Shown here: positions 18,003 through 24,301 of the stretch, one piece after another
How the letters are laid out: each line of letters opens with the position of its first letter
How positions within the stretch are numbered: the first letter of the stretch is position 1
Assembly (NCBI GenBank): GCA_007121535.1
Contig: SKKK01000563.1
Span: 1 to 36,484, forward strand
Reading direction: 5' to 3'
DNA from: Planctomycetaceae bacterium
Lineage (GTDB): Bacteria; Planctomycetota; Planctomycetia; Pirellulales; Pirellulaceae
DNA length: 36,484 nucleotides
Notes under the pieces: model-generated
Seen by the model: only the letters and a program-made list of their open reading frames with translations
What the model was told of the DNA's origin: nothing
The model's database searches: none
Made by a program: the position numbers and the translations under genes

Positions 18003-18024
18003 ATCCTCAAGCCGACTTGAGGAT
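18003..18024. promoter_or_regulatory. Perfect 9-bp palindrome overlapping a promoter
   Basis: ATCCTCAAG-CCGA-CTTGAGGAT is a perfect dyad. It overlaps the -35-like TTGAGG (18017-18022), as an operator would. It could instead be a hairpin with a four-base loop ending a leftward transcript; there is no T-run on either side, which favours an operator. Confidence 0.45.
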
Positions 18025-18122: not shown

Positions 18123-18329
18123 TTGATCCATGCAGCGTTGGTTGGCCAATCGAGTTTTCTTCTCTGGCATGCGATTCCGATCGTCATCGGGATCAGTCTG
18201 GTATACGGAGCGACGCGTCACGAGTTGATGGGTCACATCCTGTACAGCGCGTACCGCACCGCGTTATGGATCTTGGGGTTCGTGGCCGTGATCGCCGTCG
18301 TTTTGGCTGTGATTTCCTGGATGGTATGA
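18123..18329 (+). CDS. Small two-helix membrane protein, TTG start
   Basis: This is a 68-residue protein of unknown function. TTG 18123 is chosen as start because GGAGG stands at 18110-18114, 8 bases upstream. The first ATG nearby (18130) is out of frame. Two hydrophobic helices are visible, at about residues 10-30 (FLLWHAIPIVIGISLVYGA) and 47-66 (LWILGFVAVIAVVLAVISW). They are joined by a short polar turn TRHELMGHILYSAYRT that contains two histidines. The stop TGA (18327-18329) is followed after three bases by the ATG of the predicted amidase, so the two are very likely translated together. No catalytic motif is seen; a subunit or anchor role is only inference. Confidence 0.75.
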   Translation: MIHAALVGQSSFLLWHAIPIVIGISLVYGATRHELMGHILYSAYRTALWILGFVAVIAVVLAVISWMV

Positions 18330-18332
18330 CCG

Positions 18333-20312
18333 ATGCTGCGATTTCTGATGGTTGCTGGTTTGCTGAGCGTCTGGTTGCTCGGTCCTCCAACGTTCGCTGC
18401 CGAATCTCCGCTGCCAGCGCTGTTGGATTTGCTGCCGGAGCGTGTCGAGACGATTTCCGGGCGGCAGACCGAGCAATTGGAGACGCATGCCGCGCAATTG
18501 GACGAGTGGGCTTCCCTGCAATGGTGGCAGGAAGGAAAGCCAGAAACGATCGTCCAAACCATCCAATTGCTCGTCGATTTGAAGGCGAACGTCGACGCGG
18601 CGAAGGACCGCATGCTGCAGATGCGCATCGAATTGGGGCAACGTGCGTTGGAGGAATCCGATGATGCCATCGTGCGGTATTACCTCCGATCCACGACCGC
18701 GTTGATCGACCTCTCCGGACGTATTCGCGCCCGGTTGAGCGATGTGATCCGAGCGGCCGCCTTCTTTTTGGACGAGTACCCGGAGCACTACGATCAGATG
18801 CTGCAAGCGTTGATCGATCACCGAGTGGAAATCGGCGCCATCGCGATGTCGTTCATGTTGTTCGATCCGCCGCCTGACAGCGGCTATGTCGGTTTCACTG
18901 CGGCGGAAAAGTACCGGGTCCTGCAACTGATCAATCTGACCCATCAATCCGACTTGGTGCCGACGGTGGCTCAGTTTATCCGCGTCGAAGAGAATCCGGC
19001 TCTGGTGGTCATCGCGGCGGAATTGTTGCGACGTTTGGGACTGCCGCAGAAACCTCGCCCGGGGACCGACCCCAAGCTGCCCGAACCGGCCATGCTGGCG
19101 GATGAGTTGGCAGGCATCTTGAATCGGATCGAACCGCAACGATTGAGCGACGCGTTGCGTGACGTTCGCCGCGATTTGTTGACGTGGCTGGACCAGCGGC
19201 AGCGGCGAGGCGTGGTCGACGACGTTTTCCGACTGGGACGCTTGGAGTTGCGGCCGGGGGATTGGCTGCTGATGCGCAACCCGTCGCCCTACAACCGTTT
19301 TACGAATTTATCACCCGGCTTGTTTACGCACGTCGGCGTGGTGGCCGTGGAGGTTGGTTCGGACGGTATCCGCCGCTTTGTCATCGTGGATCTTCCCGAG
19401 CGGGGGGCGACGGTTCCTGCGACCACCGTGGATGTCTATCTGCAGCGAACGCTCCATTTCTTTTTCCTGCGCCACGAGGATCCGGAGGTCGGCCGGCAGA
19501 TGGGGCAAGCGGCGGCGGCCATGATCGATAACCCGGCGCAATTCGACTTGACCTTTCAAACGCATCGCGTCCACCAACTGCGGGATCAGCCGCTGGAAGA
19601 TCGCTTGATCCACACGTACTGTGCCGGGTTCTTGTTGATCTGCGCTCAACATGCCTCACGACCGCGCGACGAGTTCTTTCCCTTGGTCGAATCGGCTGCG
19701 GGAGGCTATACGGCGGCGAATCTCGAAACCATGGGTCTGTCCATCGGCGAAGATTTCATCTCGCCGACCGGAGCGATCTTTTCGCCCCGGATGCGGATCG
19801 TGGGACGTCGGGAGCCGATGTACGATCCGGCTCGGGAAGTTCAGGAAGCGATCTATGACGCTTTCGCCGATCGAATGATCAGCCACCCGTTGAATCCCTC
19901 GCCCGATCTGCGACAGGCTTTGCGGCAGCAGTTGGCCGCCGTGGCGAAAGACAAGCCCTGGTTGGCTCGAGCCTTGGCACGCGTGAATCAGGTGAGCGAG
20001 CGGATGGACTTAGAGGCGGCTGCCAAAGCGGCGACCGTAATCGAAATCCTGGACCAGATCGTACAGCGCAGCCTCCGCGAGTTCACCGCAGCGCACGGCG
20101 CGATCATGGCGGAACCGTTGGACGATGATGCGCGAGCCCGGATGGATGCCGAGCAAGTCGCCCTGATCAAAGCCTATCACGCTCGCCATCCCGAGCTGTT
20201 GAGGCAGTGGACCGCAAGAACCATTTCGGCCCGCGATCTGCGGATTCAACTGGTAAACCATTACGTCCAGCTTGGCCGACAGCAACTGGACGCTAGATTC
20301 TTCGCCGATTGA
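18333..20312 (+). CDS. Predicted secreted cysteine amidase/peptidase (permuted NlpC/P60, YiiX-like)
   Basis: This 659-residue protein has an N-terminal signal peptide (MLRFLMVAGLLSVWLLGPPTFAA). Residues 30-300 are long helices with no recognised domain. Residues about 305-470 fit the circularly permuted NlpC/P60 (YiiX/YebB-like) fold: RPGDWLLMRNPSP at 307-319, the conserved histidine H333 in LFTHVGVVAVEV, and the likely nucleophile C430 in TYCAGFLLICAQ. In this permuted family the histidine precedes the cysteine, as seen here. The C-terminal 190 residues are helical. The protein is probably exported and could cleave amide or ester bonds in lipids or cell-wall material; the substrate is unknown. 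It lies between the small membrane protein (3 bases) and trkA (22 bases). Confidence 0.72.
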   Translation: MLRFLMVAGLLSVWLLGPPTFAAESPLPALLDLLPERVETISGRQTEQLETHAAQLDEWASLQWWQEGKPETIVQTIQLLVDLKANVDAAKDRMLQMRIELGQRALEESDDAIVRYYLRSTTALIDLSGRIRARLSDVIRAAAFFLDEYPEHYDQMLQALIDHRVEIGAIAMSFMLFDPPPDSGYVGFTAAEKYRVLQLINLTHQSDLVPTVAQFIRVEENPALVVIAAELLRRLGLPQKPRPGTDPKLPEPAMLADELAGILNRIEPQRLSDALRDVRRDLLTWLDQRQRRGVVDDVFRLGRLELRPGDWLLMRNPSPYNRFTNLSPGLFTHVGVVAVEVGSDGIRRFVIVDLPERGATVPATTVDVYLQRTLHFFFLRHEDPEVGRQMGQAAAAMIDNPAQFDLTFQTHRVHQLRDQPLEDRLIHTYCAGFLLICAQHASRPRDEFFPLVESAAGGYTAANLETMGLSIGEDFISPTGAIFSPRMRIVGRREPMYDPAREVQEAIYDAFADRMISHPLNPSPDLRQALRQQLAAVAKDKPWLARALARVNQVSERMDLEAAAKAATVIEILDQIVQRSLREFTAAHGAIMAEPLDDDARARMDAEQVALIKAYHARHPELLRQWTARTISARDLRIQLVNHYVQLGRQQLDARFFAD

Positions 20313-20334
20313 AACCAGGTAGTCGGAGTCATGC

Positions 20335-21693
20335 ATGAAGATCGTGATCTTGGGCGCGGGAACGGTGGGCAGTTGGATCGCCGACCTGTTGTGCCAAAAG
20401 CGACACAGCGTCACCGTCGTCGATGCTGATCCCGCCCATATTAAACGGATCAATGAAGAGTTGGACGTCCGCGCTTTGACCGGCCAGGCAGGACATGCCA
20501 GCGTGCTGTTCCAGGCGGATGTCTTGACCGCCGACCTGTGCCTGGCCGTCACGGGAGACGACGAGGTCAATTTGGTCGCCGCCAGCATGGCCAAGGGCAT
20601 GGGCGCGCGGCGCAGCATTGCCCGAGTGTTCGCGCCCGTGTTTCGCGACCTCAGCACGTTCGACTACCAACGGTACTTTCATATCGACCGGATCTTGAGT
20701 CTGGAACACTTGTCGGCGCTGGAATTGGCTCGCAACATCCGGCGCGCCGAAGCGATCACCATGGAAGGCTTGGCTCGGGGCGTGATCGAAGTCCAGGAGA
20801 TGGTTGTCTCCGACGCGACTCGAAGTGTGTCGCGATCGTTGAAAGATTTGCGGTTGCCTCGCGGAGTGCGGATCGCCTCGATCTGCCGAAAGGATCGGCT
20901 CTGGATTGCCGGCGCCGACGATCAGGTGTTGTTGAACGACCGGATTACGATCGTAGGCAGTCGCGAGCACGTCGACGAGGTGCGAGACATGTTTCGATCG
21001 TCTCCCGAGCCTCGGAAGCGGGTGGTGATCGCCGGGGGGGGCGAGACGGGCCATCATTTGGCCCGCATGTTGCGCAACGAGCGGTTCTCGGTCAAGCTGA
21101 TGGAGATCTCGCGGCAACGTTGTGAGGTGTTGGCCAACAATCTGCCTCACGTGACGGTCGTCCAGGCCGATGCAACTCGGCGCGCCGTCTTGGAAGAAGA
21201 GCGGGTGGGCAGTGCGGATGTGTTTGTCGCTTGTGCGGGTGACGACGAGGACAACATCATGGCTGGGGTCGAAGCCAGTGAGATCGGAGCAGCCAAGATC
21301 ATGGCGATCGTCGGCCGGCCCGACTATGCCGACATCGTCGGGCGGCTGGGAATTCACGTGGCCGTCAGTCCTCGTGATGTCATGGCCAAACAGATTTTCA
21401 GTTTTCTGCAATCCGGCCCCGTGGTCGCCCGAATGCCGCTTCCGGGCGGCACGATCAGCGTTTACGAGATCGAAGTCGCCGCGAATTCGCCGGCGATGAA
21501 ACATCGGCTGGCTGAATTGCCTTTGCCCGATCAATGCCTGATCGTAGCGGTCATGCGAGCCGAATTCGCCATGGTCCCCGGCGCCGATGATCGTCTGCAG
21601 GCCGAGGATACCATCATCGCGCTGATCGACGATCGGCAACTGCCGGAGGTGCTTTCGTCGTTCACGGTCAACAACGGGAATGCATCGTCATGA
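20335..21693 (+). CDS. trkA: Trk potassium uptake NAD-binding protein TrkA
   Basis: TrkA is the cytoplasmic nucleotide-binding regulator of the Trk K+ channel. At 452 residues it has the full duplicated layout: TrkA_N 1 (MKIVILGAGTVGSWIADLL, GxGxxG at 7-12), TrkA_C 1 (about 145-225), TrkA_N 2 (VVIAGGGETGHHLARML at about 231-247), and TrkA_C 2 (about 365-450). The acidic residue ending the second strand of the first Rossmann fold is present (VVDADPAH), which suggests NAD(H) binding. GGAG at 20325 lies 6 bases before the ATG. The stop codon overlaps the trkH start in ATGA, so the two are translationally coupled. Confidence 0.95.
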   Translation: MKIVILGAGTVGSWIADLLCQKRHSVTVVDADPAHIKRINEELDVRALTGQAGHASVLFQADVLTADLCLAVTGDDEVNLVAASMAKGMGARRSIARVFAPVFRDLSTFDYQRYFHIDRILSLEHLSALELARNIRRAEAITMEGLARGVIEVQEMVVSDATRSVSRSLKDLRLPRGVRIASICRKDRLWIAGADDQVLLNDRITIVGSREHVDEVRDMFRSSPEPRKRVVIAGGGETGHHLARMLRNERFSVKLMEISRQRCEVLANNLPHVTVVQADATRRAVLEEERVGSADVFVACAGDDEDNIMAGVEASEIGAAKIMAIVGRPDYADIVGRLGIHVAVSPRDVMAKQIFSFLQSGPVVARMPLPGGTISVYEIEVAANSPAMKHRLAELPLPDQCLIVAVMRAEFAMVPGADDRLQAEDTIIALIDDRQLPEVLSSFTVNNGNASS

Positions 21694-23261
21694 ATCTGCG
21701 CTTGGTCGCCCGGTTGTTGAGCAACGTTAGCCTGTTGATCGGCGGCGCCATGATCTTCAGCCTGCCCTGGGCATGGCCCGTGCTTGGAGCCCGAAAGAAC
21801 ATGGCGACGGAATCGATCGGTACGTTCGAAACCCGCGGATTCGTGGCGTTGCTGATCAGTATTCTGGTTTGTTTGCTGGTCGGCGGGTTGCTGCGTTATT
21901 GGGGGCGGGTGGCATCGGGCAGACTGTATCGCAAAGAGGCCATGGCCGTGGTGGGGCTCAGTTGGGTGCTGGCCAGCGTCCTGGGCGCCCTGCCCTTTCT
22001 GCTGAGCGGCACCTGTCGCGGTCGCGATCCGATGACCCAAGAGCCGATCAAGATGAGTTGGATCGACTGTTGGTTCGAATCCCAGTCGGGATTCAGCACC
22101 ACCGGGGCCACGGTGATCTCGGATCTGGAGTCGGCCGATCTGGTTCCCCACTGCATCTTGTTTTGGCGCAGTACCACGCATTTTCTGGGGGGACTGGGAA
22201 TCCTCGTGCTGTTCGTCGTCATCCTGGGACACGGTTCGGCGGGAAAAGCGTTGATGCGAGTGGAAATGCCGGGTCCAACCAAGGAAGGCGTGACGCCGAG
22301 GATGCAAGACACCGCCTGGCTGTTTACGTTGACCTACCTGGGCCTGAATGTGGTGCTGGCCGTCATCCTGTGGCTGATGGGGCTGTCGTTGTTCGACGCT
22401 CTCTGTCACGCCTTTGGTACGATGGCCACGGGCGGGTTCAGCACCTACAACGCCAGCGTGGGACATTTCCAGAGTACGGCGATCGAATCGGTGATCCTGT
22501 TATTCATGTTCTTGGCGGGTACCAGCTTCATCTTGTTGTTCTACCTGCTGAGTTGCCGTCCGCAGCGTCTGCTGGCGGACATCGAGTGGCGGACGTATCT
22601 GGCGATCCTGATCGTCGCGTCGCTGCTGGTGATGCTGATCGGCACGTGGCACGGCGACTTCGACCGGCCGCTCGAAGCTCTGCGATACAGCCTGTTTCAA
22701 GTGGTGTCGATCATGACCACCACCGGTTACGTCACCGCCGATTTCGATCGGTGGAATCATTTCGCTCGAGGGCTGCTGCTGACCCTGATGTTCGTCGGCG
22801 GTTGTGCGGGCAGCACGGGCGGTGGTTTGAAAGTCATCCGGCATATCCTGCTGGCCAAAATCCTGCGCTTGGAGATCGAACAGGCGTATCATCCGACGGT
22901 CGTCCGGCCGGTGCGATTGGGAGGCAACGCGGTGGAAGAGGGCGAATTGCGGAAGAACATCCTGGTCTATTTTGCGCTGATCGCAGTGATCTTTGTCAAT
23001 AGCTGGGTGCTGGTCGTCGCGTTCGAACCTGACGTGACGTGGGGCGATGGAGCGGAACACAAGCTGATGGACAGCGCCAGCGTGATCGCCGCGACGTTGA
23101 ACAACATCGGCCCCGGCCTGGGCACGGTCGGCGCCACACAGAATTACGGACATTTTAGTGGGTGGAGCAAGATCCTGTTCATCTGGCTGATGATGTTGGG
23201 CCGCCTGGAGATCTTTTCGATCCTGGTCTTGTTCTTGCCCGATTTCTGGCGAAGTCGCTGA
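21690..23261 (+). CDS. trkH: Trk potassium uptake membrane protein TrkH
   Basis: TrkH forms the K+-translocating channel. At 523 residues it has the expected length, with about ten membrane helices plus four half-helix pore loops. Filter-type segments are visible: [10 protein letters not shown] near residue 135, [13 protein letters not shown] near 244, [12 protein letters not shown] near 342, and [13 protein letters not shown] near 471. A glycine stands at each expected filter position. The ATG overlaps the trkA stop by four bases. Together with TrkA it should supply K+ uptake. There is no trkE-like gene nearby; TrkAH systems often work without it. Confidence 0.95.
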
Positions 23262-23299: not shown

Positions 23300-24301
23300 A
23301 TGACAACCGTCGCTGTTTACGATACCAAGAGCTACGATCGAGCGGCGCTAGCAGCCGCTGCGGGCGCCGACGCGATCGACTGGCGATTCTTCGATTTTCG
23401 TATGGGTCCGGATTCCGTCCATGCGGCTGCGGACGCTCAAGCGGTGTGCATCTTTGTCAACGACTGTGCCGATCGCACGGTCCTGGAGAAACTGGCGGAA
23501 ATGGACATCTCGTTGTTGGCGCTTCGTTGCACGGGCTTCAACAACGTCGATTTGGAAGCGGCCAAAGAACTCGGGATCGCGGTCACACGCGTTCCCGTCT
23601 ACTCGCCGTATGCCGTGGCCGAGCACGTGGTGGCGTTGCTGTTGGCGTTGAACCGGAAGATCTACCGCGCTTACAACCGGGTTCGCGAGTTGAATTTTTC
23701 GCTGAACGGTCTGGTGGGATTCGATCTGTACGGCAAGACGGCGGGGATCATCGGCACGGGAAACATCGGAAGAATCACCGCCCAGATCCTCCGTGGTTTC
23801 GGCATGCAGGTGCTGGCCTTCGATCCGTTTCCCCAACCGCAATGGGCTTCGGATTTCGGCGTCCGGTACGTTGACTCGGAGACCTTGTTCGCCCAAAGCG
23901 ACGTTGTCTCGCTGCACGTTCCGTTGACTCCCGAAACTCAATACCTGATCCGCCGCGAAACGTTGGCGTCGATGAAGCAAGGTGCGATCATCATCAATGT
24001 CAGCCGGGGCGCTTTGATCGATACGACCGCTTTGATCGAAGCCTTGAAGTCCGGTCAGGTAGGCGGCGTCGGTTTGGACGTGTACGAGGAAGAAGAGGGC
24101 GTGTTCTTCGAAGATCTGTCCGGCCAGGTCTTGCAGGACGACGAATTAGCTCGTTTGCTGACCTTCCCCAACGTGTTGATCACCGCCCATCAAGCCTTCC
24201 TGACCGAAGAGGCTCTGTCCGACATCGCACGCACCACGGTCACCAATCTATTGGCCTTTGCCAGAGGTGGGCCATTCGTGGAAGGTTCGTTGCTGGTCTG
24301 A
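23300..24301 (+). CDS. ldhA: D-lactate dehydrogenase (2-hydroxyacid dehydrogenase family)
   Basis: The enzyme reduces pyruvate to D-lactate with NADH. ATG 23300 is chosen as start (GGAGA upstream at 23283, spacing 12) and gives 333 residues, the family length. Visible features: RCTGFNNVDL near residue 75; the NAD-binding GIIGTGNIGRI near 147-157; catalytic arginine in NVSRGALID near 235; glutamate in GLDVYEEEEG near 261; histidine in ITAHQAFLTEEAL near 296. The FFEDLSGQVLQDDELARLL segment matches the fermentative LdhA type of E. coli rather than phosphoglycerate or glyoxylate enzymes. It lies 38 bases after trkH on the same strand and may be the last gene of that run. Using the symbol ldhA rests on this similarity only. 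Confidence 0.88.
   Translation: MTTVAVYDTKSYDRAALAAAAGADAIDWRFFDFRMGPDSVHAAADAQAVCIFVNDCADRTVLEKLAEMDISLLALRCTGFNNVDLEAAKELGIAVTRVPVYSPYAVAEHVVALLLALNRKIYRAYNRVRELNFSLNGLVGFDLYGKTAGIIGTGNIGRITAQILRGFGMQVLAFDPFPQPQWASDFGVRYVDSETLFAQSDVVSLHVPLTPETQYLIRRETLASMKQGAIIINVSRGALIDTTALIEALKSGQVGGVGLDVYEEEEGVFFEDLSGQVLQDDELARLLTFPNVLITAHQAFLTEEALSDIARTTVTNLLAFARGGPFVEGSLLV

Follow-up and report, generated by a model that had tools for sequence, protein, structure and literature searches.

Contig SKKK01000563.1 of the Planctomycetaceae bacterium assembly GCA_007121535.1 carries four consecutive genes encoding a small membrane protein, a predicted secreted cysteine enzyme, and the potassium uptake proteins TrkA and TrkH, raising the question of why a putative exported enzyme should be placed together with a potassium transporter. 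We analyzed a 36,484-nucleotide stretch of this contig (hereafter the window), along with relatives of its genes in other genomes of the order Pirellulales (Planctomycetota). It seems somewhat probable that the four genes are the remnant, within this genus, of a cluster ancestral to the Pirellulales with the order DUF6677 – small protein – enzyme – trkA – trkH, in which the enzyme would perform thioester chemistry on acyl or lipid groups and whose genes would be kept together by shared expression.

Organization of the locus

As given in the initial annotation, the open reading frames (ORFs) and sequence place all four genes on the forward strand at 18123-23261, separated by 3, 22, and -4 bases. 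The features on which the argument depends are listed here.

18123-18329, + strand: small two-helix membrane protein of 68 residues with a TTG start (ORF call; GGAGG 8 bases upstream)
18333-20312, + strand: cysteine enzyme of 659 residues, predicted to be secreted (ORF call)
18333-18401, + strand: predicted Sec signal peptide of the enzyme, approximately residues 1-23 (by eye; relatives have similar N termini)
19257-19262, + strand: Gly309-Asp310, the GD motif of NlpC/P60 proteins, expected on their first core strand (58/58 sequences)
19329-19331, + strand: codon of His333, predicted catalytic base (57/58; aligns with the C92 histidine)
19389-19391, + strand: Asp353, uncertain candidate for the third (acidic) catalytic residue (Asp in 52/58, Glu in 6/58)
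19542-19544, + strand: Phe404, at the place of the NlpC/P60 signature tyrosine (Phe in 57/58; opposite the Tyr of the C92 YDF)
19620-19622, + strand: codon of Cys430, predicted nucleophile (57/58; Ser in relative L116)
20335-21693, + strand: trkA, potassium uptake regulator of 452 residues with two RCK domains (NF007039, PF02254, PF02080)
21690-23261, + strand: trkH, potassium-translocating subunit of 523 residues (PF02386)

TrkA is full-length with two RCK domains, scores 456 bits against the cut-off of 293 for the NCBIfam equivalog NF007039, and matches both PF02254 and PF02080 in two stretches each in Pfam. TrkH scores 192 bits against the Pfam PF02386 cut-off of 27, and lies under the narrower NCBIfam cut-offs (268.5 against 331 for TIGR00933, and 308 against 866 for NF008020). 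Both therefore match the families of the TrkAH potassium uptake system, but unlike that system they are located here behind the small gene and the enzyme gene, and in relatives behind a DUF6677 gene as well. Neither this arrangement nor any description of the cluster was found in the open-licence literature, which likewise yielded no link between YiiX-like enzymes and Trk, in agreement with the view taken when the locus was first annotated. The small protein matches no Pfam family over its cut-off and its relatives give scattered weak Pfam matches only; the two helices were read from hydrophobicity by eye. PADLOC gave no match for the enzyme or the small protein, and an identity of the locus as a defence system was dropped for that reason.

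Recurrence of the cluster within the Pirellulales

The gene order is not confined to the window genome, as can be seen in the neighborhoods of 61 relatives of the enzyme. These were taken one per genome, with fragments and contig ends included (L029, for example, has 186 bases downstream and L030 has 113 upstream; a second fragment in genome G104, represented by L022 and L046, is not counted apart), and the gap lengths are approximate because each ORF was taken to begin at its earliest possible start codon. In 20 of the 61 loci the enzyme has a same-strand trkA gene downstream, at most 645 bp away; trkH is next in 15 of the 20, and two of the 20 stop at a contig edge after trkA. Two further loci have trkH without trkA downstream of the enzyme, and together the trk-linked loci span 12 genera in four families (f1, f102, f105, and f109). 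In 26/61 the small gene precedes the enzyme at a distance of at most 330 bp, and unsupervised clustering of the surrounding ORFs revealed one further recurrent neighbor, a membrane protein of about 200 residues encoded upstream of the small gene in 24 loci and belonging to DUF6677 (PF20382; E-values of 1.6e-31 to 9.4e-40 in the three members scanned). Counted as recurrent neighbors, the small protein is present in 29 of the 61 loci, DUF6677 in 24, trkA in 20, and trkH in 17, and all others recur in at most eight, overlapping shadow ORFs being excluded as presumed images of coding frames. The full order DUF6677-small-enzyme-trkA-trkH is present in eight loci, and DUF6677-small-enzyme without trk in 13.

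In two loci of genus g353 (L103 in G617 and L117 in G635) the arrangement is rearranged, with enzyme-trkA followed by DUF6677-small about 3 kb downstream, and trkH of G617 is elsewhere.

DUF6677 and the small protein

The pair formed by the small protein and DUF6677 appears to be the oldest and most constant unit of the cluster. DUF6677 is present in 234 of 246 genomes of the order (184/184 good genomes) and the small protein family in 143 of 146 (127/128 good genomes), with S25, V27, E34, and I39 of the small protein invariant in the 23 sequences aligned. Among the matches listed for both families, the small gene lies within 2 kb of DUF6677, its usual partner, in 96 of 99 genomes (89/92 plus 7/7). 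The three genomes that differ include the window's own, which has its DUF6677 gene on a different contig (G000:C385:21479-21916, L165), and in a genus relative (G073, L028) no DUF6677 gene was found within 7.7 kb of the small gene. The pairing extends to family f4, in another order of the class, where small lies beside DUF6677 in all three loci read; none of eight f4 trkA loci showed either gene within 1.5 kb, one of the eight being cut by a contig end.

Genomes without the enzyme provide a view of the rest of the cluster. Enzyme-less genomes are those unmatched in both the family protein search and the order profile search described below, and the genomes used for these counts and for those of TrkH, TrkA, and Lnt (apolipoprotein N-acyltransferase) were hand-picked, the enzyme-bearing ones being weighted to loci without adjacent trk. 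DUF6677-small is followed by trkA, with a gap of at most about 580 bp, in 10 of 16 enzyme-less genomes that have TrkA, or 13 of 23 when a second set is included, and trkH adjoins trkA in three of those 13 loci. Since small and trkA are joined in 13 of 23 genomes that have no enzyme, the enzyme is an optional insert in the cluster. The four-gene unit proposed initially thus holds as a recurrent arrangement, but not as a closed set: the usual partner of the small protein is DUF6677, and the small gene and trkA are often joined without the enzyme between them.

Family f102 contains patterns that piecemeal loss predicts. Genome G641 has the trk part without the enzyme, and its TrkA nests among enzyme-linked TrkAs (SH-aLRT 99 and 91); genome G623 has DUF6677-small-enzyme with no trk adjoining.

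A predicted secreted cysteine enzyme

A search with the window protein found a relative of the enzyme in 21 of 199 genomes of the window's family, and a 17-row profile found one in 51 of 396 genomes of the order. In a draw from the phylum the same profile matched 3 of 392 genomes, all three in the window's order, the share of the draw lying outside the order not being shown. Relatives in other genera of the window's own family are 33-58% identical to the window protein. Conservation was counted over 58 sequences, three of the 61 relatives (L115, L045, and L117) having been left out as short fragments; in G078 (L037) the enzyme gene is interrupted by an in-frame TAA, and the longer piece was taken. 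Gly309, Asp310, and Arg380 are invariant, all 58 have Asp or Glu at position 353, and Glu356 and Phe404 are each present in 57. His333 and Cys430, singled out in the initial annotation, are both retained in 57 of the 58 sequences. The remaining one, L116 (G634, family f107), has Arg in place of the histidine and Ser in place of the cysteine and forms a very long branch in the enzyme tree, and may be a dead enzyme.

The N-terminal hydrophobic stretch of the enzyme ends in TFAAE and similar N termini are present in the relatives; read directly from the sequence, this is a predicted Sec signal peptide by which the enzyme would be exported. It is followed by a helical or HEAT-like N-terminal part, a permuted NlpC/P60-like domain (residues ~300-500), and a helical C-terminal part, the helical ends coming from a low-confidence model only. 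The window protein has no match in Pfam (at E 1 or 10) or in NCBIfam, and a search of PDB sequences with the window protein and the 17-row profile returned no papain-like match. Among 17 relatives scanned against Pfam, HEAT_2 is matched in two (best E 1.6e-4), DUF3631 weakly in three (best E 0.001), and Peptidase_C92 weakly in three (best E 0.015); the relative L114 scores 16.0 bits for C92 (E 0.013), against a PF05708 gathering cut-off of 27.

Proteins matching PF05708 are present in 10 of 25 related genomes at 12 loci, none of them the enzyme itself, and nine of these, without L122, L126, and L127, in which another reading frame had been picked, were aligned to give a Pirellulaceae C92 set that matches YiiX (2if6) at E 9.4e-5. 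With hhalign, the catalytic part of the 58 enzyme relatives aligns with this set at a probability of 88% (E 3.5e-6, score 44.2), against controls of 26.2 for the highest-scoring of 20 column shuffles, 18.1 for the reversed profile, and at most 16 for the DUF6677, small protein, and TrkA profiles. The alignment sets His333 on the C92 histidine and the FDLTF motif on YDFDFDF, where the signature tyrosine is located, with Asp353 falling one column off the C92 glutamate. The order is that of a permuted enzyme, with His before Cys, the cysteine being assigned by motif and not by hhalign.

These comparisons suggest that the enzyme belongs, as a divergent member below the Pfam threshold, to the permuted NlpC/P60 (YiiX/LRAT-like) proteins, an identity based on the weak matches in 3 of 17 relatives and on the profile comparison, although the window protein itself goes unmatched in Pfam and NCBIfam. 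Like the YaeF/YiiX proteins of C92 (PF05708) it has His before Cys, a GD motif, a candidate acidic residue past the histidine, and detectable profile similarity; unlike them it has about 300 additional N-terminal and about 150 additional C-terminal residues, an insertion separating the FDLTF motif from the cysteine, and Phe in place of the signature tyrosine. Because of this substitution, and because it falls short of the Pfam cut-off, we do not file it under C92, although it probably functions as a permuted NlpC/P60 protein does.

Six loci (L118-L121, L123, and L125) represent a second Pirellulaceae family, in which a conserved helical N-terminal part (RGYFTPSEDE-like) is joined to a clear C92 domain.

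Flanking sequences

A D-2-hydroxyacid dehydrogenase gene at 23300-24301 (+) begins 38 bases past trkH, and the same gene follows trkH in the genus relative G104 (L027); the transcript may therefore extend beyond trkH into the dehydrogenase gene. Immediately 5' of the four genes, at 18003-18024 (+), there is a nine-pair stem with a T-rich stretch, and terminator-like sites in the region are no more numerous than in shuffled sequences (5 against 5.9). In other genomes, DUF6677-small has near it a gene that from its sequence we take to encode an RsmE-like methyltransferase (L032, L036, L095, L100, L102, L104, L105, and L110) and one presumably encoding an ExeA-like AAA ATPase (L095, L100, L102, L104, and L110).

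Discussion

The substrate of the enzyme can be approached through characterized proteins of similar type. The C92 active site is composed of Cys, His, and Glu with a signature Tyr upstream of the Cys, its acidic third residue being Glu64 of BcPPNE, and the YiiX pocket holds a fatty acid (PMC3142127). LnsA, the YiiX-like protein of the LnsAB system of S. aureus, is required for N-acylation of lipoproteins (PMC7387801), and Tox-Act1 is a phospholipase among the permuted NlpC/P60 proteins (PMC12994826). These permuted relatives bind or process acyl or lipid groups; by analogy, substrates of that kind are more likely for the enzyme than those of a wall amidase, and the amidase activity first predicted for it becomes the less likely one. 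An enzyme that cleaves peptidoglycan as an amidase or endopeptidase, with a fortuitous linkage to its neighbors, would be in keeping with the predicted export, the Cys and His residues, and the GD motif, a motif described for NlpC/P60 proteins, whose canonical members are wall hydrolases (PMC10318531); however, the His-Cys order is permuted, the relatives of that order are those tied to lipids and acyl groups, and the linkage recurs in four families where other neighbors do not, making this explanation an unlikely one. The requirement for LnsA in lipoprotein N-acylation also brings to mind an LnsA/Lnb-like enzyme standing in for Lnt, but Lnt (TIGR00546) is matched in all 80 genomes searched, 32 of them enzyme-bearing, and in 79 over the cut-off, with and without the enzyme; we rejected this idea, which is scarcely credible. 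The likeness to LnsA, which is one of description and not of sequence, is that of a permuted papain-like protein of YiiX type with a second protein as its partner (PMC7387801), and the difference is that Lnt is matched here in every genome searched. Likewise compared by description and not by sequence, Tox-Act1, TseH, and DUF4105 share the catalytic order, and Tox-Act1 is directed at lipids (PMC12994826); the contexts described there are conflict systems or Bacteroides lipid contexts, whereas the locus described here has no PADLOC match and is inherited along the families of the order.

The tie to potassium is the other part of the question, and the evidence falls on both sides. That the enzyme, the small protein, DUF6677, and Trk form a single potassium or turgor module, in which turgor is signaled by TrkA, or by potassium flux through TrkH, and the exported enzyme responds by remodeling the envelope, is suggested by the trk-linked order in 12 genera of four families, by the tight or overlapping spacing (in the window, in L032 at -4 bases, and in L200 and L209, where small and trkA overlap by one base), and by the persistence of trkA beside small even when trkH does not follow (10/13). 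We nonetheless regard it as doubtful. TrkH is missing from 17 of the 32 enzyme-bearing genomes searched and TrkA of this family (E 1e-60) from 9 of 14; nearly all genomes of the order carry DUF6677 and the small protein, whether or not they have Trk; and TrkH occurs no more often where the enzyme is present (15/32) than where it is absent (28/48; Fisher p 0.36, a rough guide given the choice of genomes). The enzyme can thus exist without Trk, and Trk without the enzyme, and the absence of TrkH or TrkA from many enzyme genomes means that the enzyme does not need Trk. The potassium or osmotic role suggested for the enzyme in the initial annotation accordingly finds no support in co-occurrence, and the case for it is weak. 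A broader proposal, that DUF6677, the small protein, an exported acyl enzyme, and TrkA with or without TrkH constitute a single envelope module, physical or regulatory, that is peculiar to Pirellulales, with TrkA coupling potassium or turgor to lipid or lipoprotein remodeling and with the enzyme and TrkH as exchangeable outputs of a DUF6677-small-TrkA core, is decidedly unlikely. At the opposite extreme, the recurrent order could be functionally meaningless, a mere leftover of synteny or the product of repeated chance insertion, a view to which the independent coming and going of the members and the lack of a co-occurrence signal would lend themselves; it is very improbable, because at enzyme identities of 33-58% the small protein, DUF6677, trkA, and trkH each recur beside the enzyme in at least 17 of the 61 loci, against at most eight for any other neighbor. 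The recurrent order points to common inheritance and perhaps common expression, and does not in itself establish a shared pathway.

An ancestral five-gene cluster with piecemeal loss is the simplest and best-fitting account. It would have had the order DUF6677, small protein with two transmembrane helices, secreted permuted NlpC/P60-like cysteine enzyme, trkA, and trkH, with different parts lost in different lineages, and each of the parts is found today without the others. TrkA and TrkH would import potassium as elsewhere. The enzyme would be exported to act at the cell envelope, where Cys430 and His333, aided by either Asp353 or Glu356 as the acidic residue, would attack an acyl- or lipid-linked substrate by a thioester mechanism. 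It would presumably serve as a hydrolase or transferase of phospholipid or lipoprotein acyl groups. The genes are most likely kept together by joint expression as envelope and turgor housekeeping functions, the enzyme not being an obligate part of potassium uptake.

Several observations weigh against this account. There is no trk gene beside the enzyme in 39 of the 61 loci, a few of them owing to a contig end, and the enzyme-trkA gap reaches 645 bp in other genomes, leaving room for a further small gene, so that co-transcription is not obvious in every genome; a consensus promoter in the window region is not above chance. Deep forks are weakly supported in both the TrkA and the enzyme trees, and the linkage may have been gained repeatedly instead of inherited from an ancestral cluster. 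As to the enzyme, the full-length profile aligns with Pirellulaceae C92 at a probability of only 33% (E 4.6e-4), and Cys430 is not placed on the C92 cysteine in either the global alignment or the local one, which ends before the cysteine. Phe replaces the signature tyrosine, so the chemistry may differ, and the AlphaFold structures, computed from four sequences each, are unusable (pLDDT 50.5 at full length and 36.1 for the catalytic domain).

We have described here a genuine gene cluster that recurs within one order and contains an unnamed family of predicted secreted enzymes, whose proposed role in potassium or osmotic physiology has evidence on either side; the initial interpretation of the locus is thus partly supported. 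It provides an entry point to two families of unknown function that are present in nearly every genome of the order, DUF6677, for which nothing was found in the open-licence literature, and the small protein, as well as to a secreted cysteine enzyme family recognized by neither Pfam nor NCBIfam. If these genes do form a module, they would link potassium homeostasis directly to the lipid or lipoprotein chemistry of the envelope; if they do not, they would present a clear case of a cluster dismantled piecewise, the enzyme, TrkA, and TrkH each being naturally absent from some genomes.

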